Shown here in pieces: positions 2,016 through 21,714 of a stretch of DNA of 22,298 bases. The translations under genes were made by a program, and so were the position numbers. This DNA comes from a virus, in IMG/VR virus record IMGVR_UViG_3300042691_017633, positions 1 through 22,298 of that record. One strand, given 5' to 3'. The notes beneath the pieces were generated by a model. That model ran no database searches. It was not told the DNA's origin and worked only from the letters and a program-made list of their open reading frames with translations. Each line of letters starts with the position of its first letter. The stretch's first letter is position 1.

Positions 2016-2386
2016 AATTTTTTCAATTCTCCTAGTTTCTGTCGCTTGCCGCCATTAGCAAGCCGCCGTCGCTTGTACTCTGCTATTATCGGTTGCCACT
2101 CAGGATATAACGAATGATCTCTGCTAATGGTAGCAACGTAATTTTTTTGACCTTTGACCTTGCTACCGCAACGCATGATAATTATTTTGTCGCCGTGCGG
2201 TTCCCATCGCAGTCTGCTACCGGCTTCCAGTTGCGCCGCCTGCTGTTGTAGCAGGGCGTTACCGATGTCTTTCAGGTTGCTATCAGCCGTAACCGCCGCC
2301 GCTATTGCTCGCGGGGCGGGAGCGGAGGGTTTACCTGTTTCGTTTCTGATGCAAACGCTCGCGCGGGGCGAAAAGTTACAGCCTGT
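2012..2386 (-). CDS. Start-less open frame, probable -1 continuation of the 2302-3018 membrane protein
   Basis: From 2386 to the TGA at 2014-2012 there are 124 codons without a stop. The first ATG is only at 2176, and there is no GTG or TTG before it. The translation looks coding throughout: KDIGNALLQQQAAQLEAG, then RWEPHGDKIIIMRCG, YVATISRDH, and a basic end KRRRLANGGKRQKL. Its stop overlaps the start of the next gene by ATGA, as elsewhere in this genome. It is in the -1 frame relative to the membrane protein whose 3' end it overlaps at 2302-2386. It may therefore be that protein's C-terminal domain reached by frameshift, or it may be separated from it by a point indel (real or assembly). 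A 54-residue product from the ATG at 2176 is the fallback. Confidence 0.6.
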   Translation of the reverse strand, partial: TGCNFSPRASVCIRNETGKPSAPAPRAIAAAVTADSNLKDIGNALLQQQAAQLEAGSRLRWEPHGDKIIIMRCGSKVKGQKNYVATISRDHSLYPEWQPIIAEYKRRRLANGGKRQKLGELKKL

Positions 2387-3018
2387 TTATTTTCAGATTT
2401 TTTAGCCGTTCGTCCCTGTACAATTGACAAAATCTTCTCGACCTCTTCGGGGTCATATTGGCTATTCAAGCGCTCAATAGTTTGTAGCAACCCATCGCCT
2501 TGACGAAGTAACTCCTCTGCTACCTGTGCGTTTATGCGTTGGTCTTCCATGCTCGCCAACGCCTGCGCCTTGTGGCGACGCCGCGCTACATCGGGATCAT
2601 TGTAATAATACAAAAACCCAACGACCGTATGAATACCCGTCAACACAACAACGCCGCCCAAAAGAATTGAAGTCCAACGCTCGCCTTGAAATTGAAGATA
2701 ATCAGCAACGCCCAAAAAAACGCTTGTGGCAAACGCTAGTCCCGCCATAAATAATGAGCCTTTACGCCACGCCTCAGTCGTGTGATTATATTGCCAGCCA
2801 ATCTCCCACAACACGAACGGGATAGCGCACGCAAGGGAGGCAGATAATGCCTTCCAAATAGATTCGGTCAATCCGTAAACCACATCATAAGCCCGCACAT
2901 CGGCAATAATAACAACGATGTTTGAGAACCACGCCATAATGACAGGCGCATTATTTACAATCTCAGCCCACTTGCCACTTGATTCGTCTGTCAATAACTC
3001 TGATATTTTTTTGCTCAT
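2302..3018 (-). CDS. Four-span membrane protein with coiled-coil tail, unknown
   Basis: A 238-residue protein. Hydrophobic segments lie at about residues 27-45 (VIMAWFSNIVVIIADV), 57-74, 88-107 (LFMAGLAFATSVFLGVADYL) and 115-137 (ILLGGVVVLTGIHTVVGFLYYY). A cytoplasmic tail rich in Glu/Gln/Arg (ASMEDQRINAQVAEELLRQGDG) looks like a coiled coil. I do not recognise the family. The ATG overlaps the TGA of the 38-residue gene upstream. The reading frame stops at 2302, but the -1 frame stays open for another 290 bases, so the annotated C-terminus (PPLPPREQ) may be the product of a frameshift or may be bypassed by one. Confidence 0.75.
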   Translation of the reverse strand: MSKKISELLTDESSGKWAEIVNNAPVIMAWFSNIVVIIADVRAYDVVYGLTESIWKALSASLACAIPFVLWEIGWQYNHTTEAWRKGSLFMAGLAFATSVFLGVADYLQFQGERWTSILLGGVVVLTGIHTVVGFLYYYNDPDVARRRHKAQALASMEDQRINAQVAEELLRQGDGLLQTIERLNSQYDPEEVEKILSIVQGRTAKKSENKQAVTFRPARAFASETKQVNPPLPPREQ

Positions 3019-3132: not shown

Positions 3133-3244
3133 ACCTAACGGTTTGCGTGAGCGGCTTTACGCTGGCTCACGATTTTCAACTACCACGACTTCGGCGGGCA
3201 AGTCGCGCCCGCTTTCAACAAGTCCGCTCCACGCTTTGTTAGAA
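3133..3244 (-). repeat. attC: attC-like integron recombination site A
   Basis: Read on the minus strand. The R'' box TTCTAAC (3244-3238) pairs with the R' box GTTAGGT (3139-3133), which matches the consensus GTTRRRY. Between them lie an unpaired spacer (AAA against AAACC) and an L''/L' helix. The left arm (3234-3220) reads GCGT-G-GAGCGG-A-CTT and the right arm (3145-3157) pairs as GCGT-GAGCGG-CTT. Two left-arm bases, G3230 and A3223, therefore have no partner. Extrahelical bases of this kind define strand choice in attC sites. The terminal region 3158-3219 folds further (GCGGGC with GCCCGC). The 15 bases 3134-3148 are identical to 4706-4720 of site B. The HNH stop codon lies inside the site. 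Confidence 0.88.
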
Positions 3245-3630
3245 GGCGCTTTATGCGGGCAGTAACCATAAAAACCCAAAGACGAATTGCAATTATGACA
3301 CAACACTCTATAACCATTTGGATAATTATTATTTCTAAGCCAGTAGTAAAAATGCGAGCCTGCTGTAATATCTAACCGCCTCCTTTCTTGTGCTCCATCT
3401 CCGTTTATATGATCTATTGATAAAAATTCAATTCTATTTTCTCCGCAACACTGACAATTGACACCATACTTTTTTAACACTTCAAGTTTTAGTGTTTTGA
3501 GTGTTTTTTTACCAATTTCGTTTTTGCAGGACTTACAATAAACATGCAAGCCGTCTTTTCTGCTGTTGTCTTTGCAGAACTCAAACACACTTTTTTCTTT
3601 TTTACACCGCTGGCAAAGTTTCTTGTTCAT
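3157..3630 (-). CDS. HNH endonuclease with zinc-binding N-terminus
   Basis: A 157-residue protein from the ATG at 3630 (AAGG 7 bases before). An ATG at 3702 in the same frame overlaps the previous gene and lacks a ribosome site. Residues 6-35 hold two CxxC pairs (C6/C9 and C32/C35), a small zinc finger. The HNH core follows: CQCCG at 59-63, SIDHINGDG at 71-79 with the D73-H74 pair, and LCHNCNSSLGFYGYC at 110-124, with H112 and N115 as the later H/N positions. Such enzymes cut DNA and include homing, packaging-associated and restriction-like nucleases. Residues from about 129 onward (PSNKAWSGLVESGRD...) are encoded by the attC-like site and probably add nothing to the fold. It is the last gene of the multigene cassette-like interval. 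Confidence 0.85.
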   Translation of the reverse strand: MNKKLCQRCKKEKSVFEFCKDNSRKDGLHVYCKSCKNEIGKKTLKTLKLEVLKKYGVNCQCCGENRIEFLSIDHINGDGAQERRRLDITAGSHFYYWLRNNNYPNGYRVLCHNCNSSLGFYGYCPHKAPSNKAWSGLVESGRDLPAEVVVVENREPA

Positions 3631-3676
3631 CAAGAGCCTTCTAAGAATTAGACTGCGAGGTATACACTCGCTCAAT

Positions 3677-3952
3677 CTATAAACCGTTATACGGTTGTAC
3701 ATGTATCATCCATTTATACGGCGCAAGGTGGGTGAAGCACACATACCCGCCCGCGTGAGAGATTTCAACGTTTCGTATATCGTTGTGACTGTAACAATGA
3801 TACACATACACGGGATAACCGTTATCGTCAATTGACTCATTGAGTAGTTCCGGCGGAAACCATTCGCGCCGTCCAGTCAACCAAGAATCAACGCGGACGC
3901 CATGCGCGTTTTGTACCGCTATCATTTCTTTTGCCCGTTCAAATATATTCAT
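3677..3952 (-). CDS. Unknown 91-residue protein
   Basis: It starts MNIFERAKEMIAVQNAHG at the ATG at 3952, which overlaps the TGA of the small membrane protein upstream (ATGA). A longer same-frame start at 4045 would run across that gene and was not used. The C-terminal half is rich in His and aromatics (YPVYVYHCYSHNDIRN, HAGGYVCFTHLAPYKW) and could bind a metal, but I see no recognised motif. It lies in the cassette-like interval between RusA and HNH. Confidence 0.65.
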   Translation of the reverse strand: MNIFERAKEMIAVQNAHGVRVDSWLTGRREWFPPELLNESIDDNGYPVYVYHCYSHNDIRNVEISHAGGYVCFTHLAPYKWMIHVQPYNGL

Positions 3953-4083
3953 GGCACAAAAAAGAGATAAACCATCGGCGCGGCGACTAGGCAGGTTAGC
4001 GCGAAGATGGCAATCCATATCCACAGAATCGCGCCGCTGTTGCATTCAATTTTTTCACGATAATCTTCGTCTGGTAAGTTCAT
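3949..4083 (-). CDS. 44-residue single-span membrane protein
   Basis: It begins MNLPDEDYREKIECN, a charged N-terminus, followed by a hydrophobic segment at residues about 18-42 (AILWIWIAIFALTCLVAAP...). It is 1 base after the stop of the 49-residue gene and overlaps the next gene by ATGA. This interlocked arrangement is the main support. The topology suggests a bitopic membrane protein. The function is unknown. Confidence 0.6.
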   Translation of the reverse strand: MNLPDEDYREKIECNSGAILWIWIAIFALTCLVAAPMVYLFFVP

Positions 4084-4084
4084 G

Positions 4085-4234
4085 TTATTCACCTTGTACA
4101 TATTTCACATGCAAGCAAATCAGTTTCATGCCATGCCCCTGATCAAATATCACCCGCTCGCCGTCGCGCTCGTAACTGTACGCATGGATGTATTCGGTAG
4201 AGTTATCTTCGTAGATTACAAAATAATTTGTCAT
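4085..4234 (-). CDS. 49-residue protein, unknown
   Basis: It runs from MTNYFVIYEDNSTEYIHAY to a C-terminus LHVKYVQGE. GAGG lies 6 bases before the ATG, and the gene sits 6 bases after the RusA stop. The alternation of polar and hydrophobic residues suggests a small beta-rich protein. No family is recognised. Confidence 0.62.
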   Translation of the reverse strand: MTNYFVIYEDNSTEYIHAYSYERDGERVIFDQGHGMKLICLHVKYVQGE

Positions 4235-4240
4235 ATCGCC

Positions 4241-4576
4241 TCATATTTCATAAACCAAAAACTCAACTCGTGGATTTAATTTATCATCCTCACGGAATGA
4301 ATGTATCTCTATGACCTGACTATCATCCAACCATACCAAACCTTTGAGGGCGTCAAACATAACTTTTGTATAATTATCCAAGTCGCCGCGCCGTTGCGGT
4401 CGAAAGACCGTAAAATTAACTCCGACATTCTGTCTCAGCGGTTCGTATTCACGCAACTGAATAAATACCTGTTTCTTATAATCTGACGCCTCAGGCGTCA
4501 CAATTATTCGGTTATTTGCAACCATCCAGTAACGATTAGCGGACGGCGGAACCGGCAAAATAAAACTATATTCCAC
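4241..4576 (-). CDS. rusA: RusA-family Holliday junction resolvase
   Basis: A 111-residue protein if started at the GTG at 4576; a TTG at 4600 is the longer option. The N-terminus YSFILPVPPSANRYW (residues 3-17) matches the family's opening strand and PPxxNRxW motif. The catalytic acidic cluster is RGDLDNYTK at 63-71 (D65, D67) followed by FDALKG and WLDDSQV at 82-88 (D84/D85). RusA dimers bind four-way junctions and cut symmetrically near CC dinucleotides, resolving recombination or replication intermediates in phage DNA before packaging. Length is close to the 120 residues of the E. coli protein. It overlaps the end of a 43-residue ORF. It lies inside the cassette-like interval bounded by attC-like sites A and B, an unusual place for a core phage enzyme. 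Confidence 0.92.
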   Translation of the reverse strand: MEYSFILPVPPSANRYWMVANNRIIVTPEASDYKKQVFIQLREYEPLRQNVGVNFTVFRPQRRGDLDNYTKVMFDALKGLVWLDDSQVIEIHSFREDDKLNPRVEFLVYEI

Positions 4577-4697
4577 GCGGCATCGCCTTCGCTTTGTCAA
4601 GATATTCGCGCGCCATTGTCAACCATTGCTCATCCATTGTCAACCAATAACGCTCCTCAGCGCGTGCCGATTTGTTTAATAAGATACGCCAGTTCAT
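4566..4697 (-). CDS. 43-residue ORF at the head of the multigene cassette
   Basis: It starts MNWRILLNKSARAEERYW, 13 bases after the core of attC-like site B, and ends inside the start region of rusA. It contains an internal duplication: a 13-base sequence at 4613-4625 recurs at 4634-4646, 21 bases apart and in frame, giving WLTM twice (YWLTMDEQWLTMAREY). No ribosome site is obvious. It may be a leader ORF whose translation is coupled to rusA, or a real small protein. Confidence 0.45.
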   Translation of the reverse strand: MNWRILLNKSARAEERYWLTMDEQWLTMAREYLDKAKAMPRGI

Positions 4698-4704
4698 ACA
4701 ATCA

Positions 4705-4833
4705 ACCTAACGGTTTGCGTAACCCGCAAAAGGGCGGGCTAGGACAAACCTTCTAAGTCGAATAAAAATTCAGGCTGGGAAAATGCCTGAGACGGGGACG
4801 AATCCCTTTTGTCGGGTTCACGCGATGTTAGAC
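4705..4833 (-). repeat. attC: attC-like integron recombination site B (clearest copy)
   Basis: On the minus strand the R'' box GTCTAAC (4833-4827, matching RYYYAAC) pairs with the R' box GTTAGGT (4711-4705, matching GTTRRRY). After the unpaired spacer (ATC against AAACC) the L''/L' helix is 18 bp. The left arm 4823-4804 reads GCGT-G-AACCCG-A-CAAAAGGG, and the right arm 4717-4734 supplies the complement of GCGT-AACCCG-CAAAAGGG. G4819 and A4812 are therefore extrahelical, six pairs apart, exactly as in site A. The terminal part contains a further hairpin (CAGGC with GCCTG). The methyltransferase stop codon lies within the site. Length of 129 bp is within the usual attC range. Confidence 0.92.
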
Positions 4834-5620
4834 CCCGCCCTTGCCCGAAGAGTGGGACATTGGTTGCAAGTAACCTTTTCTCTGCAAGCATGACATATTC
4901 AGGGCTTATCTCAATTCCGAGATAATGACGGTTTAGCATTTTTGCCATTTTCAAAGTTGTGCCTGAACCAGTGAAACAATCAAGGACGGTATCACCTTCG
5001 TTTGACCATGAAAGAATATGGTCTTTTGCGAGTGCTTCGGGAAATTGCGCTGGATGGTTGTAGTCTCTATCAATTCCATTTGCTGCGTCAACAATCCAGA
5101 CATTATTTCTAATGCCGTATTCTTTGCGAACCTGAACACGCAAATCTTTTTTATCACCTGTTTCGTGACGATGACCACCTGTCCACATTACGCGCTGTGC
5201 TTTCTTGATATTCTTTCTATCTGCAATCAGATTGTGAGTTTTTGGTAGCCCTTTTGAAAGGATAAACATATACTCAAACGATTGCCAATATAAATTATTT
5301 GAACCCGTTGCGCCTGCTACTTTGTGATAAATCATCGTTTCAACATTGAAGCCACACTCACGAAAATATAAAGCCTGTTTGAAACTGGTTAGCGTTTCGC
5401 TTCCGTTTATGGTTGCGTCACCGACCACCCACACCACAACCCCGCCCGCTTTTGTGACCCTGAACAACTCGCGGGCGATAGTTTCAAAATCGAAAGTAAA
5501 GCCGTTATAGGTTCGGAGATTGTCGTAAGGCGGGGATGTGACAGTAATATCAATGCAATCGGGCGGGAATGATTGCAAGACTACTGCGCTATCACCTGTG
5601 ATTATTTTATCGAGTTCCAT
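4739..5620 (-). CDS. DNA methyltransferase, N4-cytosine/N6-adenine type, beta-class motif order
   Basis: A 293-residue protein. Motif IV TSPPY lies at residues 28-32 (catalytic loop that flips out the target base), followed by FETIARELFRVTKAGG and VWVVGD. Motif I DCFTGSGTT lies at 214-222 with LGIEISPEY at 234-242, forming the S-adenosylmethionine pocket. Motif IV before motif I is the beta order. TSPPY is found in both N4-C and N6-A enzymes, so the target base is not decided. No restriction enzyme gene is adjacent, so it is probably a solitary methylase that protects phage DNA from host restriction or alters regulation. Residues 263-293 are encoded by attC-like site B and are probably a non-conserved tail. 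The start lies about 20 bases after site C, so the gene is the whole content of a 0.93-kb cassette. Confidence 0.93.
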   Translation of the reverse strand: MELDKIITGDSAVVLQSFPPDCIDITVTSPPYDNLRTYNGFTFDFETIARELFRVTKAGGVVVWVVGDATINGSETLTSFKQALYFRECGFNVETMIYHKVAGATGSNNLYWQSFEYMFILSKGLPKTHNLIADRKNIKKAQRVMWTGGHRHETGDKKDLRVQVRKEYGIRNNVWIVDAANGIDRDYNHPAQFPEALAKDHILSWSNEGDTVLDCFTGSGTTLKMAKMLNRHYLGIEISPEYVMLAEKRLLATNVPLFGQGRGLTSREPDKRDSSPSQAFSQPEFLFDLEGLS

Positions 5621-5637
5621 GCTACTCTCACGAAGGG

Positions 5638-5760
5638 GGCTAACGGCTTGCGTTACCTGCCGCCGACTTTGGCAAGTAACTCTCGAATAAAATTTACAAA
5701 CATAGCAAGGCGCACTAGCATACCCGCGCCGAAGGCGGTCAGGTGCGCGCTTTGTTCGGC
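5638..5760 (-). repeat. attC: attC-like integron recombination site C (more degenerate)
   Basis: On the minus strand the R'' box GCCGAAC (5760-5754) faces the R' box GTTAGCC (5644-5638), with five of seven positions pairing. The L'' arm 5750-5734 reads GCGC-G-CACCTG-A-CCGCC, and the L' arm 5650-5664 complements GCGT-TACCTG-CCGCC. The extrahelical G and A are again six pairs apart. The 3' core CGCAAGCCGTTAG differs from sites A and B at one position. An alternative local hairpin exists: 5652-5661 with 5671-5680, ten bp with one G-T pair. The stop codon of the unknown 120-aa gene lies inside. Confidence 0.8.
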
Positions 5761-6015
5761 GGCACTTCTGACAAACTGATACCGCCTTATGAGATTACGT
5801 TCATCTTCGCCAAAACCAATCCATGACGCAGGCTTTATGCACAAGACTTCAAGCGTTCCCCACTCAAAATCAATGTTGGTTATAACCTGCTCATCATCGC
5901 CAGCGCGAGTAACAATATCGCCAACCGCAAAGGCTTGCTGAGAAAACGATAACTCAAACAAGCCTGGGTTATCTTCTTTCACGTTTGACGAATTTCCTGA
6001 TTGTAAAAGATTCAT
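5653..6015 (-). CDS. Unknown protein with small beta-barrel-like core, ending in attC-encoded tail
   Basis: 120 residues from the ATG at 6015; a TTG at 6039 would add eight residues but has no ribosome site. The core at residues 29-82 (FAVGDIVTRAGDDEQVI, then LEVLCIKP, and DERNLIRRYQFV) has the look of a KOW/SH3-type small barrel. Proteins with a VGDIVTR...NLxRRY pattern occur as short hypothetical proteins in phages and environmental DNA; that is from memory and not checked. Residues 86-120 (AEQSAHLTAFGAGML...KVGGR) are the translation of attC-like site C and so are probably not part of the fold. The function is unknown. Confidence 0.7.
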   Translation of the reverse strand: MNLLQSGNSSNVKEDNPGLFELSFSQQAFAVGDIVTRAGDDEQVITNIDFEWGTLEVLCIKPASWIGFGEDERNLIRRYQFVRSAAEQSAHLTAFGAGMLVRLAMFVNFIRELLAKVGGR

Positions 6016-6067
6016 TTTTTCTCGCTTCTTCGGTAGCAAGGAAGCCGCCGAACTAGCGGATATACAG

Positions 6068-6303: not shown

Positions 6304-6552
6304 TTAAAGTTTTATGTCAAGATTCAATTTCGGCACACGCTCGCCAGCAATCGCTTTGTCATAGCAAGCGCGTGTATTTGACTTTGGATAAGCGCCTGAA
6401 TTGCGCCAATCCCTATACATGACAATCCGTTTCACCCTCGCCCAAAAGCGCGGGACTTCGGACAACCGCAAGCCGATAAACATGTGATGCGCCGCAAATT
6501 CGTTCTTGGCAAATTTGCGTTTTACCATCCATTGATTTATGTCTTTATTCAT
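6304..6552 (-). CDS. Unknown 82-residue basic protein
   Basis: It starts at the ATG at 6552 because GGGAG lies 8 bases upstream; an ATG at 6567 in the same frame lacks a ribosome site. The sequence is basic and aromatic (WMVKRKFAKNEFAAHHMFIGLRLSEVPRFWARVKRIVMYRDW), followed by AYPKSNTRACYDKAIAGE. It may bind nucleic acid, but no family is recognised. It follows the helicase gene after an 98-base gap in which I see no other gene. Confidence 0.7.
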   Translation of the reverse strand: MNKDINQWMVKRKFAKNEFAAHHMFIGLRLSEVPRFWARVKRIVMYRDWRNSGAYPKSNTRACYDKAIAGERVPKLNLDIKL

Positions 6553-6650
6553 TCCCAAAACTCCCATAACGATTTGACGAGTAATAGATTGCTACGCTTT
6601 GCGCGCCGACACCATGATTCATATATGGCGGTGGGGGTGAGGGTCATTCT

Positions 6651-9377: not shown

Positions 9378-9679
9378 TCTGTCATCCTTTCTTTTACTTT
9401 CTTAATTACATACGTCCAGTAATTCGAGAAGCGCTCCATCCAACGCTGACGATCATTGCTTGGATAGTATCCCAACTCAATCATCCGGTACAATAACATC
9501 GCCGCCTGCAAGCGCCCGAAGTTTTGCCCGCCCAAATCTTTGACGCGCCGCTCAATCTGGTCAAGCATTGAGTCCAGCCAAATCTCGCGCTGTTCATCGC
9601 CGCGCACAAACTCACGCTGTAAAAATTCTAAACACTCGCCCTCTAACATCGGGCGCAGGGGTTGGTAATATGACTGCAT
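9374..9679 (-). CDS. Unknown 101-residue helical protein
   Basis: It is charged and helical (LEGECLEFLQREFVRGDEQREIWLDSMLDQIERRVKDLGG, then RLQAAMLLYRMIELGYYPS). Its start codon shares one base with the stop of the pentapeptide gene (TAATG), and its stop overlaps the next start, so it belongs to the same transcript. It is not recognised. The helix pattern suggests a small DNA- or protein-binding adaptor. Confidence 0.75.
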   Translation of the reverse strand: MQSYYQPLRPMLEGECLEFLQREFVRGDEQREIWLDSMLDQIERRVKDLGGQNFGRLQAAMLLYRMIELGYYPSNDRQRWMERFSNYWTYVIKKVKERMTE

Positions 9680-10425
9680 TATGTCACCTCTCTAACCTGC
9701 AACGCCCGCGCGCACCGCGCCTTGCCGGTTGTGTTGTATGGCACAACGATACCAGCCGCATCTTCCCACGGCACGAGCAATTCAAAATAACGAGCGTCTG
9801 GATAATTATTTCTTACCCATTCAAGCGTGCCGATATTTACGCCGCATCCACAATCATCTTGACGGTTTGGATTAACAACCTCTTCCAGCCACTCTCCAAT
9901 AACGCCAAGTTTCCAGTATGACGGGGCGCTGTAACTCGTGTTGCCAATGGCTTTGTATACGATGTATCCAAGTTCATTGTGCAGAAAATTTTCTTTCATC
10001 CATTTTGCCGCATCTCTCAAACCCTGCGCGCCGCTCAAGTTCGCGCCGCGCAAGTCTGCGCCGCGCAAGTCTGCGCCGCGCAAGTCTGCGCCGCGCAAGT
10101 CCGCGCCGCTCAAGTCCGCGCCGCTCAAGTTTGCGACGCCCAAGTCCGCGCCGCTCAAGTCCGCGCCGCGCAAGTTCGCGCTGCCCAAGTTCGCGCCGCC
10201 CAAGTCCGCGCCGCTCAAGTTCGCGCCGCGCAAGTCCGCGCCGCTCAAGTTCGCGCCGCTCAAGTTCGCGCCGCTCAAGTTTGCGACGCTCAAGTCCGCG
10301 CCGCTCAAGTCCGCGCCGCTCAAGTCCGCAACGCTCAAGTCCGCAACTTGCTTTTTGTTGTATTCCAGCCACTCAATAACGGTCTTGCCGTTGTGTACAA
10401 TATTTTTAGGTTCTCGCAGTTTCAT
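9679..10425 (-). CDS. Pentapeptide-repeat protein with C-terminal globular domain (DUF5758-like)
   Basis: 248 residues. An N-terminal 26-residue lead-in ([11 protein letters not shown]) precedes 21 uninterrupted pentapeptides of A(D/N)LxX type at residues 27-131 ([15 protein letters not shown]), which build a right-handed quadrilateral beta-helix about five turns long. Residues 132-248 form a separate domain ([10 protein letters not shown] near 152, [24 protein letters not shown], then [10 protein letters not shown]) that resembles the DUF5758 domain often attached to phage pentapeptide repeats; this is from memory. Some pentapeptide proteins mimic DNA and inhibit gyrase. Whether this one does is unknown. 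The ribosome site is weak (GAAAGAAG), and the hairpin at 10447-10482 lies just upstream of the start, so translation may be limited. Confidence 0.9.
10033..10347 (-). repeat. 21 tandem 15-bp units encoding pentapeptides
   Basis: Unit consensus on the plus strand is CGCGCCGCTCAAGTC with frequent variants (GCGC or GCCC for CGCT, TTC or TCC before CGC). The array is exactly 315 bp, 21 units, with no frame break. Because the unit is a multiple of three and lacks stops in most frames, long spurious frames appear on both strands across it. Confidence 0.95.
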
Positions 10426-10446: not shown

Positions 10447-10482
10447 CCCGCCCCGCGCGGAGGAGAAGAGACGCGGGGCGGG
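10447..10482 (-). other. Perfect 11-bp GC hairpin before the pentapeptide gene
   Basis: CCCGCCCCGCG (10447-10457) is the exact reverse complement of 10472-10482, with a 14-base loop. It fills the gap between the ssDNA-binding-like gene and the pentapeptide gene. No T-tract follows on the minus strand, so it is not a typical intrinsic terminator. The 12-mer CGCGGGGCGGGA of its arm recurs at 2310-2321, and an 11-base version is in the hairpin at 11106-11130. Confidence 0.75.
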
Positions 10483-10493
10483 ATGGGGGAGGG

Positions 10494-11072
10494 TTATTGA
10501 CCGAATGGAAAATCGTCCTCATTCGGGAGCGGGGCTTCATCATCAACACTTTTCGCTTGCGATTGTTTTTCGATAACCCACTTTGGCGGGGCTTCGTCTT
10601 GTTTGCGAACGGGGGTTAGTTTCTCCATGCCTTTGGTTGGCGGGAGAATGGCGGACACATTCGCAAACATTTTGCTGGCGTCCTTAAACCCCTGCTGGTG
10701 TGTAACTCCAATCAGGCAGTTAATCCCGTACAGTTGTTCGACATTGAATCCGGCTTTGATTTCGTCCGCTGTAAACGCCTTGCCGCGCCACGATTCCAAA
10801 TCCTTTTTCAGGGCGGCATTTTCATACAGTGAGAGAGTGTAAGTCTTGGAGAGCATGTAAGGCTTGCCGTGATATTCATTCTCAGGCGCGTTAATCAGTT
10901 CGGCAAGTTCCCATGCAATCACAATCTTGTGGCGCAATTTCGTTTCCCCGTTGTAGGTTGATTCTTGCATCCCTAAATCCCACACGCCACAACAAACGGC
11001 TTGCACGGTTCCGGCTTCGGGTAACGGGATATGATCAAATTCTTTTTCACTGGCTTTCGCAATAATGGACAT
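10494..11072 (-). CDS. Phage ssDNA-binding-like replication/recombination protein
   Basis: 192 residues. The body matches a widespread phage family with an OB-fold-like core. It opens with [23 protein letters not shown], continues with [52 protein letters not shown], and ends with [23 protein letters not shown]. The tail is acidic and ends [15 protein letters not shown], the acidic DDxPF-type tip by which SSB proteins recruit partners. It likely coats single-stranded DNA during phage replication. I infer this from pattern and place in the early operon; another reading is an unknown replication accessory. AAGGA lies 8 bases before the ATG. Confidence 0.78.
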
Positions 11073-11105
11073 TGCATTTTCCTTTTCTGTGATTTTCGAT
11101 TGTAT

Positions 11106-11130
11106 CCCCTCCCACTATCGCGGGGCGGGG
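11106..11130 (-). other. GC-rich hairpin before the ssDNA-binding-like gene
   Basis: CCCC (11106-11109) pairs with GGGG (11127-11130), and CCC (11111-11113) pairs with GGG (11123-11125), across one mismatch. The loop is 9 bases. It lies in the 86-base gap before the start at 11072, 34 bases from the ATG. It shares the CGCGGGGCGGG core with the hairpin at 10447-10482. Confidence 0.55.
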
Positions 11131-11158
11131 CGTTGCGGGTCGCCTTGCTACGGCAGGG

Positions 11159-11623
11159 TTAGCGGTTTATTTCAACCTCCTGCGCCCCAAAATAATCCAT
11201 GTAATCCTGTGCATTGTCACTGTGAAAGTTGGCAAAAGATTTACATACTATCATTTTTCCGACAATACCTTTTTTTGTTCGTGGCTTACGCGGGATTTTT
11301 TCGCCGCGTTGTACTGGCGATAAATCCACCTCACCATACGCCGCGTTGACCTGTACCTCGGTCGCCTGCCAGTCAAGTGACGTATTGATAATGTGTAATG
11401 GGTCGGTCGCGCATAGGACTAACGCATCGTGTAATGCCCGCGCCTCCGTGTCGCTCAATTCCCCGTAGACTTCGCAAACAACCTGAGCCGCAAGCCATTC
11501 CTGATAGTCATCGGATTGGCTATGTTCGCATCCATGTGTCAGCCTGATATTACATACCGGACAAATACCGATTGCATAATCATTCGGGGTTATGGTTGCA
11601 AGGTAATTGTATCTGCGTGGCAT
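11159..11623 (-). CDS. Unknown 154-residue protein with N-terminal CxxC
   Basis: Residues 20-32 hold ICPVCNIRLTHGCEH, which could bind one zinc ion. The middle is acidic and helical (SDDYQEWLAAQVVCEVYGELSDTEARALHDAL). A basic linker (GEKIPRKPRTKKG) precedes a short C-terminal part. GAGG lies 5 bases before the ATG. No family is recognised. It is in the early operon just before the ssDNA-binding-like gene, so a replication or host-takeover role is plausible but unproven. Confidence 0.75.
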   Translation of the reverse strand: MPRRYNYLATITPNDYAIGICPVCNIRLTHGCEHSQSDDYQEWLAAQVVCEVYGELSDTEARALHDALVLCATDPLHIINTSLDWQATEVQVNAAYGEVDLSPVQRGEKIPRKPRTKKGIVGKMIVCKSFANFHSDNAQDYMDYFGAQEVEINR

Positions 11624-11659
11624 ATATCCTCAATTCTGTTTGATTGTCGTTTTGATTGT

Positions 11660-11709
11660 CCTCCCCGCCGCTCGCTTCCAAGCGCATTTACACTGTTACG
11701 GCGGGGAGG
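11660..11709 (-). other. Perfect 11-bp inverted repeat with internal hairpin
   Basis: CCTCCCCGCCG (11660-11670) is the exact reverse complement of 11699-11709. Inside the loop CGCT (11673-11676) pairs with AGCG (11681-11684). It lies in the 178-base gap before the gene that starts at 11623. There is no gene in this gap, only this structure and the hairpin at 11766-11784. After the stem the minus strand carries ACAATCAAA twice, not a T-tract. Confidence 0.75.
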
Positions 11710-11765
11710 TTGTGTCTGTGTATCAGCGACCTAGTGCAAGACCACATCTCAGACGTTTTGATTCT

Positions 11766-11784
11766 ACTCCGATTTGTTCGGAGT
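11766..11784 (-). other. 7-bp hairpin ACTCCGA-N5-TCGGAGT
   Basis: A perfect short stem-loop lies 18 bases after the stop codon of the metallopeptidase-like gene. It lacks a downstream T-tract. Together with 11660-11709 it makes the gap strongly structured, suggesting transcript processing or attenuation between 11802 and 11623. Confidence 0.5.
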
Positions 11785-11801
11785 GGTATCACACAAAGGT
11801 A

Positions 11802-12224
11802 CTAATGCGCCTTTCGCCATGCTCGCAACATCTTGATTGCATAGGCGTCTGCGTCGCGTTCGCTGAATTGACCGCGCGCCCCCCATACTCGCCAGCCGCG
11901 CGGATGTTTGGCTTGCCATAAATGACGCAGTTCATGAGCCGTGACAAGCACTAATGCTTCCAGCCTTGTGTAGATGTCTATCGCCAAATATCCGCCATGC
12001 GCTTTGACGCGTAACGGATATTTATTATCCTTGCCAATTGACACGATTACAAGCGGGGCGACGGTATCGTGATAAGAGCATCCTTGTGTGTAAGCACGCC
12101 CGCGAAAAGAACCGGCGCAATTTTTGAAACTAATATCAAACTTGCTTACGCCAGCAGGCTTAACAAATCTCACTATGTCTCGAATCAATTCGTTGTCAAA
12201 ATCGGTGTAGTTTTTTATTTTCAT
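11802..12224 (-). CDS. Zinc metallopeptidase-like protein (HExxH)
   Basis: 140 residues. VLVTAHELRHLWQAKHP at 92-108 contains HELRH (97-101), a zincin active-site signature in which two His bind zinc and Glu activates water. SERDADAYAIKML at 121-133 supplies a following acidic residue (E122 or D126), as in compact zincins such as SprT-like or ImmA-like proteins. There is no signal peptide, so it acts in the cytoplasm. Phage-encoded zincins can cleave host repressors or handle DNA-protein crosslinks; which applies here is unknown. The ATG overlaps the upstream stop (ATGA), so the two genes are coupled. Confidence 0.8.
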   Translation of the reverse strand: MKIKNYTDFDNELIRDIVRFVKPAGVSKFDISFKNCAGSFRGRAYTQGCSYHDTVAPLVIVSIGKDNKYPLRVKAHGGYLAIDIYTRLEALVLVTAHELRHLWQAKHPRGWRVWGARGQFSERDADAYAIKMLRAWRKAH

Positions 12225-12640
12225 TTCACACCATCCAGCAGGCGGCGGGCGATGTCTTTGACAATGCGCGTGATAGGCAATTCGCCGCGCAATGTTTCGT
12301 CAATCTCTCGTATACCCGCTTCCAATTCTGCGATGCGCTTCTCGGCGGCGGCAAGTTTATTAAACCTGTTGCAGATTTCATTGTGGATATACTCGGACTC
12401 TTTGGCGCGTGCGGCATTGTCTACCCCGTCCAACAGGGATGATACCGTAGCAATCTCTCTGCCTTCATTATCTAAGATTTTCCGTATGCCAGTCGTGCTA
12501 ATGGTCGGCTGTAATAATGTAATCATCGTTTTATCTCCTTGTAAGTTCCTGATTGCCTGCGCCTTGACCGCGTCAAGGTCGCTAGTATCGTCGTCCACCA
12601 AAAGGCGTGTCATTTCATCGGCTATCTGTTGTTTGTTCAT
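12221..12640 (-). CDS. Unknown 139-residue coiled-coil protein with a second internal start
   Basis: The ATG at 12640 has GGAG 6 bases upstream; a start at 12658 overlaps the previous gene and is less likely. The first 38 residues (MNKQQIADEMTRLLVDDDTSDLDAV...) are helical and acidic. Residues 80-115 (IHNEICNRFNKLAAAEKRIAELEAGIREIDETL) are a probable coiled coil. An in-frame ATG at 12526 is preceded by AAGGAGAT, a stronger ribosome site than the first, so a 101-residue short form (MITLLQPTISTTG...) may be made as well or instead. It is not recognised. Confidence 0.72.
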   Translation of the reverse strand: MNKQQIADEMTRLLVDDDTSDLDAVKAQAIRNLQGDKTMITLLQPTISTTGIRKILDNEGREIATVSSLLDGVDNAARAKESEYIHNEICNRFNKLAAAEKRIAELEAGIREIDETLRGELPITRIVKDIARRLLDGVK

Positions 12641-12647
12641 TGCGCTC

Positions 12648-12893
12648 CTATCTTGCAATCACTGTTGCTAAGTGTTTGAAAAAATCCATTACATCACCGT
12701 TTGCAAAATCTATCTTAACGATAATATCCTTGATTTGTTTTTGCTCTTGCACATTAGCAATTTTTATATGCTCAACAATTACCGCAACAGGGATTATGTT
12801 TATTCCCCATTCTTTGCCTTCAATCTCAAAAGACTGATCCAGGTCAATCCCTTTTTCTTCAATGAATGTGTCAAACCATTTGTTAAAAGTCAT
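12648..12893 (-). CDS. Unknown 81-residue acidic protein, first gene of the early operon
   Basis: It opens MTFNKWFDTFIEEKGIDLDQ and continues EIEGKEWGINIIPVAVIVEHI, then KDIIVKIDFANGDVMDFFKHLA. AGGAG lies 7 bases before the ATG. It follows the control region with palindromes, so it is probably the first gene transcribed early. No family or motif is recognised; the sequence pattern is that of a small soluble alpha/beta protein. Confidence 0.75.
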   Translation of the reverse strand: MTFNKWFDTFIEEKGIDLDQSFEIEGKEWGINIIPVAVIVEHIKIANVQEQKQIKDIIVKIDFANGDVMDFFKHLATVIAR

Positions 12894-12958
12894 TTCGTTG
12901 CTCCTGTTTGGTTTCTATGACCTAATAATAAAACCGCAAGATTAAGAGAACCTTAAAA

Positions 12959-12976
12959 TCAGATTAGAAAATCTGA
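12959..12976. promoter_or_regulatory. Palindrome TCAGATT-N4-AATCTGA, early operator candidate
   Basis: It has perfect 7-bp arms with a 4-base spacer, 66 bases before the first early gene and downstream of an AT-rich stretch. It is a good candidate for a repressor site that controls the early operon, although its half-site differs from those flanking the winged-helix gene. Confidence 0.5.
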
Positions 12977-12992
12977 CCAATTTTTGACGCAG

Positions 12993-13004
12993 ATTATATA
13001 TAAT
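12993..13004 (-). promoter_or_regulatory. AT palindrome ATTATATATAAT with TATAAT, early promoter candidate
   Basis: A 12-bp perfect palindrome contains TATAAT (12998-12993 on the minus strand). AGAAATT and ATCTG flank it. A clear -35 is missing at 16-18 bases, so the promoter may need an activator or a phage-modified polymerase. It lies between the structural-gene terminator and the early operon, where a promoter is required. Confidence 0.45.
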
Positions 13005-13025
13005 TTCTGAGAAAGTTCCCCACCC

Positions 13026-13056
13026 GCAAAACAAAAACCCCGCTTATTCAGCGGGG
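13026..13056 (-). terminator. Intrinsic terminator after the virion module
   Basis: On the minus strand CCCCGCT (13056-13050) and AGCGGGG (13044-13038) form a 7-bp stem with a 5-base loop, followed by TTTTTGTTTT. It is 23 bases after the stop of the fibre-like gene. This is the only textbook Rho-independent terminator in the window and marks the border between virion and early modules. Confidence 0.93.
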
Positions 13057-13078
13057 TAGTGAGCGTAAATTGTAAACG

Positions 13079-13753
13079 CTATGCAATCCAGATTTTAGCG
13101 ACCATCAAAACGCCGGTAGGATTGGTTGACCATGTCGGCGTTACCCATTTCAGCGTGAAATAATCGCCTAGTGCGACCGATACACTCATGGAGGTATTGC
13201 TAAATGAAAACGGGGTTGCGTTGAATACCGCCGCCGATGTGACGGTTGTATCGGTCGTATCGTTGAGGCGGAATGAAATTGTACTGGTTTCCGTGGTTGC
13301 AAGCGTCCCCGTGACAATGCCGTCAATGTAAACGCGCCTTACCACGCCCGCGCGCGGCACTCTGATTTTGTGTTGCGCCGCAACAGTCACCAACCCCTGA
13401 TTTGTAAATGGACTAAAATAATAAGTGGTTGCGTCGGCGGGATTACTGCCAGTACTTGCGCTAAAATGCGCGTCCAAACAATACCCGCCCACATTTTCGC
13501 CTAGCACTTTATACGCCGTTGCATCGCTTGACGAATAGATGGACAGGTAGTCGCTGGTCAATACCGGCGTGCTGGTAACTGTCAAATTATTGATGCGCTT
13601 AAAAATATTAACGCCGCCCGCCGCCGTTGTGCCAATGTCGGTTTCGATTGCGGTAACTTCGTCTTGCAATTCGTTGACGTGCGCGGCTTGTGGATAATCC
13701 ACGCCATCAGTTTTTGACGTATAAGTTTTTACAGTAGTTGGAAAAGATGCCAT
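13079..13753 (-). CDS. Tail fibre/receptor-binding-like protein
   Basis: 224 residues from the ATG at 13753, which has AAAGGAG 8 bases upstream; a start at 13801 would overlap the previous gene. The N-terminus (MASFPTTVKTYTSKTDGVDYPQAAHVNELQDEVTAIETDIG) is the type of leader that attaches phage fibres, with a short helical stretch that may form a trimer. The remainder is Thr/Ser-rich beta structure (FSASTGSNP, RVPRAGVVRRVYIDGIVTG, TISFRLNDTTDT, FTLKWVTPTWSTNPTG) like a jelly-roll tip. It is the last gene of the virion module and probably contacts the host surface. Confidence 0.75.
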   Translation of the reverse strand: MASFPTTVKTYTSKTDGVDYPQAAHVNELQDEVTAIETDIGTTAAGGVNIFKRINNLTVTSTPVLTSDYLSIYSSSDATAYKVLGENVGGYCLDAHFSASTGSNPADATTYYFSPFTNQGLVTVAAQHKIRVPRAGVVRRVYIDGIVTGTLATTETSTISFRLNDTTDTTVTSAAVFNATPFSFSNTSMSVSVALGDYFTLKWVTPTWSTNPTGVLMVAKIWIA

Positions 13754-13766
13754 TTTATAAACTCCT

Positions 13767-15317
13767 TTAAGTTGATACCGGCGATACGTTGACCAACGCA
13801 TGGCGGCACGTCCATTCGGTTTCTATGTCCTGCCCGTTGGCAGACATCCATTTATGACGTATTCGCATAATGCGGTACATATTATCTGTTTGTGATGCGG
13901 TAAATTTTGGTTTTGCGATGGTGAAATAAGTCGGACTATTTATATCCTGCCAAAATTGCTCCGGTTGGTTTCGTAGTTTGACCGTAACGCGACGCGATAG
14001 GTGAGGGTAACCAAGATAAAAGAACTCGTTGTATTTGACTGAATCAGCGTTGTAATTCATATTGTATGGCGTATCTATGGTTAATGTTCGTGCGGGTGTT
14101 TCGCCCCAGTTATCTAATGTGTGCTCAATCATCGTTTTGCGCCAATAGACAACCGTGCCTTTAACTTGTAGCGTTGTAAAATAGCCGCTGTCCGTACTGC
14201 CATTGGTCAATGTCAAGCGTGCGCCGCTTCCCAGTTCCGAAAACGAAACAGAACAAGACGCGGTAATATTCGAACCGCTCCCGTCACTGGAAGTATTAAC
14301 CACATAATCGCCGTCGCTTGACTGCAACGTATTGGCAAACGCTACAAACCTGTCAATCGTCGCGTCGTCATAACGATAGTCAATCAAAAAATTTATAGAC
14401 GAATTTGCGCCAACTGCTATATCGTCCTCTGTTTCCTTGCTCCAGATTACCGTATCAGTCGCGCTGTATGAAAATTTATATACATTCACGTTTAATTTGG
14501 TGAATAGATTTTCCCACGGTTGCGATACAATAATGGGTTTCAGCAAAATACTTTCGTCAAATGTGTTGCTGTCGGTTGCCGAATAATTATTTTCCGAATA
14601 GTCCCAAACTACCTGCCCCGCCGCGTCTACATAAACAAGATTTGTGTCCTCTTGCATTAAATCATGAATCACACGATAGGCGGTATCATTACAAGAGAAA
14701 TACGCAAAGCCAGTTGCTGAACCGCTGTCAATTATATTATAGCCGTCTGTCCAGCCGATATTATCCAACACCTCAATAAACGCTGTTTGACCGGCAGTGT
14801 TAAAATCCGTGTCGCTGAACAGGGCGATATTTGCGACGCGCTCTTGCAATATCTCAACGCCGTCGTGGATGCGTATCGTTGCGGTGTTGTCGGTTGGGTT
14901 GTTGGATATGTCGCGAACGTACCCATAAAAAACTTCGGTGTCTGTGCTTGAATAACCCTCGCGCACGCGTATGCGCGCCTTGCGTCCAGGCAGGTTATCG
15001 GTACTTGGCGAGCCGTCCGTATTCCATAAGTTATAGCGCCCCGTGCTATTGTCGAATTTAAGCGTACACGTCCCCACCATCGGCATACTCATACCGTCCG
15101 CGCCAAATTCGTTCGTGTCAAATTCCTGCAAAAAGCCTCTATCAATATCCATGCCAATGCAATATATCGCCTCATTGCTCCCGTCAAATGCGCCGTCATT
15201 ATCGCGGTCAATTTCGATTGACCATAGCCTCGTGGTAGACGGCGAACCAGGCACGCCGTAAAAGCGCGAGGCGTTGCCATATCGTAAAGAATTGAATCCA
15301 TAACGTTCGTATGTCAT
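13767..15317 (-). CDS. Tail-tip (baseplate/hub) protein
   Basis: 516 residues, beta-rich and acidic. It opens MTYERYGFNSLRYGNASRFYGVPG, followed by LWSIEIDRDNDGAFDGSNEA at 31-50 (a DxDxDGxxD calcium-binding-like loop). Residues 80-180 (TCTLKFDNSTGRYN, GRKARIRVREG, VFYGYVRDI, TIRIHDGVEIL) resemble hub-type beta domains found directly after tape measure genes. The C-terminal YRIMRIRHKW...ETEWTCRH is typical of tail proteins that rotate vector-like strands. Its ATG overlaps the tape measure stop (ATGA). I infer the tail-tip role from position and fold pattern. An exact family is not assigned. Confidence 0.78.
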   Translation of the reverse strand: MTYERYGFNSLRYGNASRFYGVPGSPSTTRLWSIEIDRDNDGAFDGSNEAIYCIGMDIDRGFLQEFDTNEFGADGMSMPMVGTCTLKFDNSTGRYNLWNTDGSPSTDNLPGRKARIRVREGYSSTDTEVFYGYVRDISNNPTDNTATIRIHDGVEILQERVANIALFSDTDFNTAGQTAFIEVLDNIGWTDGYNIIDSGSATGFAYFSCNDTAYRVIHDLMQEDTNLVYVDAAGQVVWDYSENNYSATDSNTFDESILLKPIIVSQPWENLFTKLNVNVYKFSYSATDTVIWSKETEDDIAVGANSSINFLIDYRYDDATIDRFVAFANTLQSSDGDYVVNTSSDGSGSNITASCSVSFSELGSGARLTLTNGSTDSGYFTTLQVKGTVVYWRKTMIEHTLDNWGETPARTLTIDTPYNMNYNADSVKYNEFFYLGYPHLSRRVTVKLRNQPEQFWQDINSPTYFTIAKPKFTASQTDNMYRIMRIRHKWMSANGQDIETEWTCRHALVNVSPVST

Positions 15318-17281
15318 GAGTACCTCTGAGCCTCTTTGACGCCCTGTAAAATGACGGGCAAAAGATGTGCCCGCAGTTCCGCTTCGCTCGCCAGCGATAC
15401 GGCGGGGGCGTATGTCAAATTAACTGTTACGCCGCCATTACTACCAACAGGTGCAAGCATTGCCATTTGATCGCGGGTGAATACGCCTTCAGTACCGTGT
15501 AATAATTCCCAATGTCCGCGATTTGAGCCGGTCGTGATGCCGCCTTTGGCGTGTCCGCTCGCGCCCGTCCCCGTAGTTCCCGTTCCAGAGCCGGTACTCC
15601 CGCCTGTGCCTGTTCCGCCAGGGAATAGATTGCCAATATTAACAACCAAATTAAGAATCTCTGATCGCAATTTTGTGATGATATTTGTAATCAGTCCGTA
15701 AATCGTATTGATTGCGCTTTGGAAGCCCGCCAGAATTTTATCGCCTATCAATTTGCCAAGACTTGATAATGAATTGGCGGCGGATGTAAACGCATCTTTG
15801 AAGCGTTGCACAATCTCACGCGCTTTCGCTTGTATTGCGGATATACGCGATGAAATGGACGCGATAATATTATTAACAATGGTTGCGCCGGTCTCTTTCA
15901 TCGTGGTTATGCCGTTATCTATCGCGCCTTTAATTTTGGTCATCAAGTCGTGCATGGTATTGATAGCGATGGTTTTTGTTTTATCAATACCTTCGCCGAT
16001 TTTTTCGCCGAGTTGTTGCGCCTTTTCTTTTAACACAGGATGCGTGCCATTAATCGCCATGACGAATTGAGTCTCTAGATAATGCCAGCCGATACGCATG
16101 TTTTGTACAACCGTCTGCCATGAGTCGTAACCAAGCAAGCCAGCTAGCAGGTTTTTACCGGCGTATGATAACGACGAAGCGAGCGCGTCCCAGTTAATTT
16201 CGCTCACCATCGTACTCAGCCCATTAAATATATTTATAAATCCCGCCCTGATTTCAAGACCTATTGCCGCCCAATCCATCGTAGCGATTTTATCGGCTAT
16301 CCCCTGACTCATTCCGCTCCAGTCTACGCCGTCCATCCAATCCTCAAACATTTGAGTCAAGTCAACAAAACTTTTACCCTTCAACCCGCCCGCAAAATCA
16401 AGCAAGCCCTTTGTCGCGTTGCCTAACCATTTCCCCATGTTTTCAAGTTTCGCCATACCGTCGCCAGATAGCCACTCGGTAAATTTCGCGACTAATGGCT
16501 GTAACTCGTCAAACATGCCTTTGAATAATGTCCGCAAGCCTTTTTTCTTCAACTCGTCAAGCGTCGACAAAATACCAGACCACGAATTAGCCATGCGCTC
16601 CGCGCTACCGCCCACCGTGCCTTCCAACGTTTTATTGAACGCCTCCATAAACGAATCGGCGTCTACCAATCCTTTACTAACATCGTCTAATGTAAACCCC
16701 ATTCCTTTCAAAATGTCGTTTACAGGCACGCCAGCATACGCTAATTGATTCAGGTTATCGGCGGTGACGCGTCCCTTGCTATTGATTTGACCAAGCGCCA
16801 GCGCGACGCTATTCATCACGGTTGATTCCTGCCCTGTCGCGGCAAGTAAATCCAACGTATTTTCAGTTAACTTTTTCGCTTCATCGCTGGTGAATCCGTA
16901 TGTTAGCGCCGTGCGATATGCCGCTGAAACGCCGGTCTCGTCGAACGGCGATTTCATAGCCAATTCGCTAATCCATTTCAACGTATCTTGCGCCGCCGGC
17001 CTCGCCATAGCCAGCGCCTCGGTCATATCTTTCGCCGCGCCCGCGTTCAAAATTTCACGCGCGGTCAATGCCTGAATACTCGCGCCGAGCCGCTCATATT
17101 CTGCAATAGCGTTCAGCCCCTCTTTCGCCATTTTCGCAAAACCAACCGCAACCGCGCCAACCGCAACCGCGCCGAAGGCAGTCGCGGCTTTGGCGATGCC
17201 TCCAAGCGAAGAGCCAACGCCCTTTATAACGCTTGACGCGTTATCTTTTGCATTGATAATTATTTCAACGGTGTTTGCCAT
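15314..17281 (-). CDS. Tape measure protein
   Basis: 655 residues. The opening VEIIINAKDNASSVIKGVG and a hydrophobic stretch AKAATAFGAVAVGAVAVGFAKM (residues 31-52) are typical of tape measure N-termini. The segment at 95-200 (TLKWISELAMKSPFDETGV, AYRTALTYGF, LLAATGQESTVMNSVALALGQINSKGRVTADNLNQLAYAGVPV) is the conserved tape measure core seen in many siphoviruses. Later residues are amphipathic helices, then a Gly/Thr linker and a C-terminal end (HAKGGITTGSNRGHWELLHGTEGVFT). At about 1.5 angstrom per residue it predicts a tail of roughly 98 nm. It starts 17 bases before the end of the chaperone extension frame and lacks a clear ribosome site, so it may be coupled. Confidence 0.95.
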   Translation of the reverse strand: MANTVEIIINAKDNASSVIKGVGSSLGGIAKAATAFGAVAVGAVAVGFAKMAKEGLNAIAEYERLGASIQALTAREILNAGAAKDMTEALAMARPAAQDTLKWISELAMKSPFDETGVSAAYRTALTYGFTSDEAKKLTENTLDLLAATGQESTVMNSVALALGQINSKGRVTADNLNQLAYAGVPVNDILKGMGFTLDDVSKGLVDADSFMEAFNKTLEGTVGGSAERMANSWSGILSTLDELKKKGLRTLFKGMFDELQPLVAKFTEWLSGDGMAKLENMGKWLGNATKGLLDFAGGLKGKSFVDLTQMFEDWMDGVDWSGMSQGIADKIATMDWAAIGLEIRAGFINIFNGLSTMVSEINWDALASSLSYAGKNLLAGLLGYDSWQTVVQNMRIGWHYLETQFVMAINGTHPVLKEKAQQLGEKIGEGIDKTKTIAINTMHDLMTKIKGAIDNGITTMKETGATIVNNIIASISSRISAIQAKAREIVQRFKDAFTSAANSLSSLGKLIGDKILAGFQSAINTIYGLITNIITKLRSEILNLVVNIGNLFPGGTGTGGSTGSGTGTTGTGASGHAKGGITTGSNRGHWELLHGTEGVFTRDQMAMLAPVGSNGGVTVNLTYAPAVSLASEAELRAHLLPVILQGVKEAQRYS

Positions 17282-17513
17282 GTCTGTGTTTTGCTTTTAA
17301 TAAGCGAGCCTCGCGCTCCGCGCGCAGATTGAATTGACCGACAATGTAATTTGTGCGGATAATCCATTTGATTTTCGTCCACGCCGTTTCCGGTTCGTGC
17401 ATGATGACCCACGGTGGAGTACCCCATTTTTCCGCCGCATTCCACGCGCCAAACCAGACGGGCAACCTACGCCCGCCGCGCTGAATTGCATTATCTATCA
17501 GGCGGCGGTCGGA
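17265..17513 (-). CDS. Tail assembly chaperone extension (T part), reached by -1 frameshift
   Basis: The -1 frame is open from 17528 to the stop at 17265 and looks coding: SDRRLIDNAIQRGG, then PVWFGAWNAAEKWGTPPWVI, IKWIIRTNYIVGQFNLRAE, ending KAKHRHGKHR. It has no ATG suitable as a start; a TTG at 17465 lies in the middle. Joined at 17513 to the first 82 codons of the short chaperone it gives a 164-residue fusion. Position between tail tube and tape measure, and overlap with the tape measure start, match the lambda G/GT arrangement, where a small fraction of ribosomes shifts to produce GT. Confidence 0.75.
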   Translation of the reverse strand, partial: SDRRLIDNAIQRGGRRLPVWFGAWNAAEKWGTPPWVIMHEPETAWTKIKWIIRTNYIVGQFNLRAEREARLLKAKHRHGKHR

Positions 17514-17758
17514 GGGTTTAACGCGTTATCGTTAAGTAACTCTAAAAATCTTGTCAATACGACTTGGATGTCTTTCATTTTCAGCGCGCCTAGTTCTTTC
17601 TTAGCGCGCTCATACGGTACAGGTTGATCGGCGGCGTCCACTACAAAACGGGCGATAACATTTTTACTCGCGCCCATCTTGCCAGACTCTAGCACTTCCA
17701 AATCGTCCCATGTTAAATTCTCTTGCGCCGTGCCGTCAAACTTGAATCGAATCTCCAT
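17498..17758 (-). CDS. Tail assembly chaperone, short (G) form
   Basis: 86 residues: MEIRFKFDGTAQENLTWDDLEVLESGK, then VIARFVVDAADQPVPYERAKKELGALKMKDIQVVLTRFLELLNDNA. The pattern of a small acidic alpha/beta protein between the tail tube and tape measure is that of siphovirus G-type chaperones, which coat the tape measure before tube polymerisation. AAAGG lies about 8 bases before the ATG. Near its end is a heptamer pair suited to -1 slippage (17513-17522). Confidence 0.82.
   Translation of the reverse strand: MEIRFKFDGTAQENLTWDDLEVLESGKMGASKNVIARFVVDAADQPVPYERAKKELGALKMKDIQVVLTRFLELLNDNALNPPTAA
17513..17522 (-). promoter_or_regulatory. Candidate -1 ribosomal frameshift site GTTAAACCCT
   Basis: In the chaperone reading frame the codons are TTA AAC CCT. 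Two overlapping slippery heptamers are present: G_TTA_AAC, the sequence used by equine arteritis virus, and A_AAC_CCT, which fits X_XXY_YYZ exactly. The -1 frame is closed by TAA just upstream (17528-17530) and open downstream, so this is the only window in which slippage can happen. A GC-rich region follows that may form a stimulatory structure. Confidence 0.65.
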
Positions 17759-17769
17759 GCAAAACCTTT

Positions 17770-18783: not shown

Positions 18784-18786
18784 ACG

Positions 18787-18966
18787 TTACTCCTCTGCCT
18801 GTTCAAACACAGGCACATCATTTTCTTTTTTTGCTTTTCGTTCTTTTACTTTTTCATAAAGACCAGATGCAAGCACGCGCTTTTCGCCGTATTGCTTGAC
18901 CTCTTCGTCCGTTAAATCACGAGCGGGAATGCCTTTTACAAATCCTTTTCCGTTGTATTTATACAT
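18787..18966 (-). CDS. 59-residue small virion-module protein
   Basis: It opens MYKYNGKGFVKGIPARDLTDEEVKQYG and continues with a basic C-terminal helix (LYEKVKERKAKKENDVPVFEQAEE). The pattern YxYxGxGFVxGIPARDLTxEE is seen in short phage proteins between head and tail genes, from memory. It starts 8 bases before the stop of the gene upstream and stops 3 bases before the tail tube start, whose ribosome site it encodes. Its role is unknown; it could be a small adaptor or scaffold. Confidence 0.8.
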   Translation of the reverse strand: MYKYNGKGFVKGIPARDLTDEEVKQYGEKRVLASGLYEKVKERKAKKENDVPVFEQAEE

Positions 18967-20116: not shown

Positions 20117-20128
20117 CCATAAGCCTTT

Positions 20129-21165: not shown

Positions 21166-21174
21166 AATAAGATG

Positions 21175-21203
21175 CTAGGGGTGAGAAAGTTTCCCACCCC
21201 TAG
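21175..21203 (-). other. Near-perfect 29-base hairpin between head genes
   Basis: CTAGGGGTG (21175-21183) pairs with CACCCCTAG (21195-21203), and GAAA (21185-21188) with TTTC (21190-21193), across one mismatch. It fills the gap after the decoration protein gene and lies 10 bases before the connector start. There is no T-tract on the minus strand, so full termination is unlikely. RNA processing or partial attenuation could keep capsid and decoration proteins in excess over connector. Confidence 0.75.
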
Positions 21204-21213
21204 ATTATTACCG

Positions 21214-21702: not shown

Positions 21703-21714
21703 TGTGTCACCTCA

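Follow-up and report, generated by a model that had tools for sequence, protein, structure and literature searches.

The closest described counterparts of the locus reported here are the phage CALINs of Qi et al. (2023; PMC9892861), of which the article text gives 17 among 10,705 genomes (TJE1, P12002L, PH101 and others). The same text counts five methylases in phage cassettes, proposes that these counter restriction, and states that IntI1 recombined five of the six phage attC sites tested. The present locus shares with these elements, as described there, an integrase-free attC array in a phage, cassettes running in one direction and an N6_N4_Mtase cargo. It differs from them, as far as that text describes them, in that copies of one cassette occur in several phages, each preceded by a different attC body, one pair of copies being without a mismatch, and its sites probably represent a further attC type. 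Phage cassette arrays with methylases are already known, and what this locus adds is evidence, of an unusually direct kind, that phages exchange cassettes; no report of a cassette common to several phages was found in the text of Qi et al. (2023) or in literature titles and abstracts.

Three other kinds of element are comparable. Bacterial sedentary chromosomal integrons and CALINs show the same attC anatomy, complementary cassette ends and single-gene cassettes with the gene start 11–36 nt past the core, but the present array sits among phage genes and no copy of its cassette was found in the bacterial loci searched (see below). Phage orphan N4/N6 methyltransferases (PHROG 67; PADLOC oMTase) are likewise solitary, with no cognate endonuclease recognised alongside, whereas the enzyme described here belongs to a mobile cassette, whose own attC encodes the C-terminal tail of the protein. 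Temperate phages with complete integrons (V. anguillarum phages, P1 and Shewanella M16-3, as given in the article text of Qi et al., 2023) similarly show that phages carry integron parts; in contrast, no integrase was found in the fragment analysed here. Integrases of the type found in Virus Rctr41k, discussed below, are 38–46% identical to those of these earlier phage records, and the integrons that contain them sit among phage genes and are not part of any known host integron.

The window, the whole stretch of 22,298 nucleotides that was analysed (IMG/VR virus record IMGVR_UViG_3300042691_017633), contains three attC sites on the minus strand, which is also the strand of its phage genes. In minus-strand order these are site C (5760..5638, core GTTAGCC at 5644..5638), which ends the preceding cassette, site B (4833..4705, core GTTAGGT at 4711..4705), which is the methylase cassette's own, and site A (3244..3133, core GTTAGGT at 3139..3133). 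Cutting cores C and B at G/TT on the minus strand gives a unit of 933 nt (5643..4711), from the TT of core C to the G of core B. The sole long gene within it is that of the methyltransferase (5620..4739), whose ATG lies 23 nt past the cut of core C and whose stop codon lies inside attC B, 28 nt ahead of the next cut; the last ~31 residues of the protein are encoded by attC B. The original prediction, made from the sequence alone, had described a core-to-core interval of about 0.93 kb in the classic single-gene cassette format, with the methyltransferase alone, starting about 20 bases past one core and ending inside the next attC. The measured borders agree with this on each point, with G/TT at both ends and, at the 3′ end of the gene, the unit's own attC. 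With three attC sites within 2.7 kb and no integron integrase in the 22.3 kb fragment, the array is a CALIN.

The attC sites were scored with a two-arm profile in two versions. The training contigs had been found via the methylase, via another window gene or via a pattern modelled on sites of that kind, so that the profile stands for a single attC type and not for attC in general. For that type, the first version, trained on 11 sites that were all from other viral contigs, scored sites A, B and C at 47.9, 52.2 and 48.3, while the highest score in 200 dinucleotide shuffles was 31.0. The larger version, built from 84 training sites with the window left out, scored them at 58.5, 52.0 and 56.9, where 1,000 shuffles reached 20.9 at most, and found no further match scoring 12 or more in the window. 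The arms (R′′/L′′ and L′/R′, one of them carrying an extra base) are pairable as judged by the profile and by covariation, the arm pair 18–25 being 91% paired against 48% when shuffled. The hairpin itself is seen for site B only, the bottom strand of which adopts an attC fold (z −3.9); sites A and C gave no attC hairpin in free folding and have ordinary folding energies. An initial custom hairpin scanner could not distinguish sites A–C from shuffles, and the arm profile took its place. No Rfam family matched in the region.

Cassette starts in these arrays are complementary to the R′′ of their own attC. Over 62 cassettes the mean is 6.65 of 9 positions against 4.12 when shuffled, a value reached by none of 2,000 shuffles; the window methylase cassette has 6 of 9, its copy in L084 has 7 of 9 and the next interval 3 of 9. 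The high profile scores, these complementary starts and the covarying arms are one ground for reading the unit as a cassette. A degenerate attC left-arm pattern also picked out 27 stretches in IMG/VR (L139–L165), nearly all with attC sites, mostly in clusters of 2–9 that all point in one direction.

Upstream of the methylase lies a cassette (5644..6052, minus) that ends in attC C and carries an ORF without assigned function (6039..5653), for which no Pfam or PHROG match was found. Its start, GTTCGGCGGC at 6053, is the reverse complement of the R′′ of site C at 10 of 10 positions. The G of this G/TT (6053..6053, minus) forms the left edge of the array, and upstream of it neither an attC nor a recognisable attI was found. 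Downstream, the interval 4710..3139 (minus) ends in attC A and is not a one-gene cassette but a composite of three genes, namely a RusA-like resolvase (4600..4241), an unknown ORF (4045..3677) and an HNH gene. The last of these probably forms a cassette of its own (3157..3644, minus), which starts with TTAGAAGGC at 3644, has its ATG at ~3630 and encodes an HNH endonuclease (phrog_2255). Except for the leading G, this start matches the reverse complement of the R′′ of site A (GTTAGAAGGC), and an attC between the HNH gene and the preceding genes has probably been lost. Elsewhere in the window, 9679–10425 encodes a pentapeptide-repeat-like protein, with a DNA period of 15 nt and ~19 units, and contig L074, 99.8% identical to 10454–22298, extends the phage ~1.9 kb past the right end of the window.

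The methyltransferase (4739..5620, minus) is a solitary N4/N6 DNA methyltransferase of 293 aa that matches Pfam N6_N4_Mtase (1.7e-38; 133 bits, cut-off 26.7) and phrog_67. Its best PADLOC family is the orphan methylase (5.8e-83), its translation contains the motifs TSPPY and DCFTGSGTT, and its PDB relatives include 2zie and CcrM. No cognate restriction endonuclease was recognised beside it, the neighbours being an unknown ORF and RusA-like and HNH/endonuclease VII-like genes; a weak link between the methylase and the HNH gene may exist. Compared with the homologue in L151, the protein is 93% identical over residues 1–99, 32% over 100–186 and 76% over 187–252, and the corresponding values for the homologue in L002 are 90, 39 and 74%. 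In this class of methyltransferase, target recognition is expected in the central stretch. The central region, presumably the target recognition region, thus differs between versions of the methylase, and together with the protein family this variation points to a probable role in anti-restriction.

Phage orphan methylases can have roles other than anti-restriction. It is possible, though on balance doubtful, that the methylase is a cassette gene but serves chiefly in another process, for example gene expression control, replication or packaging. Such a role would fit the service of some orphan methylases elsewhere, but it accounts poorly for a central region that varies fast while its flanks are conserved. 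The cargo of the arrays also speaks against it, since DNA methylases are the commonest identified function among the 68 cassette ORFs of these contigs, with at least 9 members (by Pfam five C5, three N4/N6 and one D12).

The same methylase directly follows the same core point in three other viral contigs, L002 (contig G001), L034 (G002) and L151 (G019), and starts in each of them 24 nt past the core G. Over the 60 nt from the core onward the copies are 97–100% identical, whereas the attC bodies ahead of the gene are unrelated upstream of a short conserved attC arm (25–30% identity, i.e. none). The same unit therefore stands in different contexts with its junctions at the core, which is the second ground for the cassette reading, and it is close to certain that 5643..4711 is an integron cassette. 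The original prediction would have fallen had the same methylase occupied the same place without attC flanks, or had the borders never coincided with the cores. Neither situation was encountered, as all four copies lie directly behind an attC core and the border of the common segment falls on that core. More distant homologues in viral contigs (43–59% identical, with one short segment at 64%) have no attC flanks; they are not the same cassette.

The closest pair of copies is that of G001 and G002, which share 510 bp at 100% identity; this segment opens 11 nt ahead of the core and continues until contig G002 stops, and beyond it only one 31-nt attC piece matches. The two are different phages: G001 encodes a portal, a maturation protease and major head proteins, and G002 a terminase, a primase-helicase and a major head protein that belongs to a different family. 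As a zero-mismatch copy is present in two different phages, recent movement of this cassette family between phages is well supported by the comparison of sequences. As contig G002 stops within the cassette, its junction may be an artefact of assembly.

These copies bear on whether the array is a fossil, one that entered long ago via a host integron and has since been shaped by vertical inheritance and phage mosaicism, its attC sites no longer recombining. The failure to find an integrase in the fragment, the imperfectly complementary ends, the composite interval and the half attC sites of a relative, L088, would all suit such a history. It is nevertheless unlikely, given the recent movement indicated by the zero-mismatch cassette in two different phages and the intact state of both the gene and the attC arms. 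The relative in question (L088, 1–2200; contig G004) shares window gene 2302–3018 and has full and half attC sites upstream of that gene, with two methylase-like genes among them, one of the C5 type by its motifs. Its half sites suggest decaying cassettes.

No integron integrase or tyrosine recombinase (TIGR02249, PF00589) was found in the 22.3 kb of the window, nor in the related contigs G001, G002, G004 and G005, all of them, like the window, fragments; an intI and attI beside the array, which define a complete integron, were not recognised in the window fragment. Arrays of the same type do lie beside TIGR02249 integrases (cut-off 265 bits) in other phages, with scores of 383 bits in Virus Rctr41k, 401 in G301, 379 in G310 and 376 in G298. 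In Rctr41k (KX853513; L166, 4680–10101) a recombinase annotated as xerD is an integron integrase, accompanied by six attC sites of the window's type and by methylase genes. Its annotated genes include terminase, capsid and tape-measure genes; a literature text search found no paper on this virus, and it is not named in the text of Qi et al. (2023). In the loci L176, L177 and L178 (contigs G301, G310 and G298) an integron integrase gene likewise precedes attC sites of the same type, and terminase genes lie a few kilobases from the arrays in G301 and G310.

A direct comparison is offered by L181 (8001–10897) and Rctr41k (L166, 4680–6767), which are collinear phages with integron integrases 72% identical. 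After intI, Rctr41k reads GATGGATAATTAAA followed at the junction by GTTATGCCCC, and it has no attC there. L181 at this point reads GATGGATAATGATA joined to GTTCGGCGGC, then has two cassettes, and then resumes with GTTATGCCCC. The two extra cassettes of L181, neither of which is the window's cassette, are therefore bounded by junctions that both fall exactly at G/TT. Because arrays of the same type adjoin intI in phages, and because this pair presents an occupied and an unoccupied G/TT junction, exchange from phage to phage by an integrase is likely. An in-frame TAG at a Trp position interrupts the L181 integrase gene; recoding of TAG was considered for it and rejected, as stop usage gives no support.

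The original prediction had also proposed a comparison of related phages for the presence or absence of exactly this interval. For 5643..4711 itself no strict empty site was found among phages closely related to that of the window, and the precise presence or absence at G/TT that was expected is seen instead for the other cassettes of L181 and Rctr41k. In G005 no cassettes lie between the homologues of window genes 6304–6567 and 2302–3018, but the gene order differs. The proposed search for the methylase beside attC sites in bacterial integrons gave no close copy among 39 genome loci, where the homologues were at most 55% identical and none had an attC. A search for the host by attC sequence gave no plasmid match and, in 274 genomes of one class, a single 16-mer match, which is at chance level and like the control.

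An alternative in which no integron integrase takes part, and homologous or illegitimate recombination at the arms of the attC sites exchanges the cassettes, would draw on the conservation of these arms over ~18–20 nt and on the mosaic nature of phages. It would also accommodate the finding that attC B and attC A follow different genes, with breaks at R′′, a pattern that simple cassette movement does not produce. AttC B is ~94.5–94.8% identical to an attC in L087 (16145–16278; contig G005), and attC A is 87.5% identical to one in L162 (3324–3427), each standing behind another gene there. This mode of exchange is nonetheless improbable as the main explanation, as the homology of G001 and G002 to the left of the core extends over 11 nt only, and the L181 and Rctr41k pair has both junctions at G/TT beside intI, the unoccupied phage being without an attC there. 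The recurrence of the attC bodies B (4705–4833) and A (3133–3244) after unrelated genes in other phages, with the common stretch starting at R′′, bears on how attC sites become joined to genes. Finally, that the attC-like elements are chance repeats, terminators or regulatory hairpins, for which the ordinary folding energies of A and C might be cited, is effectively refuted by scores past all shuffles, complementary cassette ends with covarying arms, junctions common to several phages and arrays of the same type beside integron integrases.

The locus is thus very probably a true integron gene cassette in a tailed-phage CALIN, a solitary N4/N6 methylase with its own attC that would be moved by an integrase supplied in trans and would act in anti-restriction. 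Against this weigh the failure to find an integrase in the window and its fragmentary relatives, the ordinary free folding of sites A and C, the imperfect complementary ends of the methylase cassette and of the next interval, and the possible artefact in G002. An integron integrase from the host or from a co-infecting phage may act on the window array in trans, recombining the folded single-stranded attC at G/TT so that the cassette would move between phages. From the sequence comparisons, an integrase is the likely mover of the cassette. The methylase gene would be transcribed along with the other minus-strand genes of the phage, and its product would modify the phage DNA and so guard it against host restriction. 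New target specificities could arise when the central region changes or is exchanged.

A broader reading, for and against which the balance is about even, is that of an integron system resident in phages and common to them. Phages of many unrelated kinds would trade methylases and other small genes via one attC type, some of them with their own integrase among replication and packaging genes, and the window phage would belong to this pool, with the integrase acting in trans. Integrons have been known chiefly as a means by which bacteria capture genes, and here the same system serves to carry solitary methylases in phages. The sequence pairs that were found allow direct tests of phage cassette exchange by site-specific recombination, and of how counter-restriction specificity evolves through cassettes. 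Genes with a likely anti-restriction role appear to pass from phage to phage as prefabricated modules.
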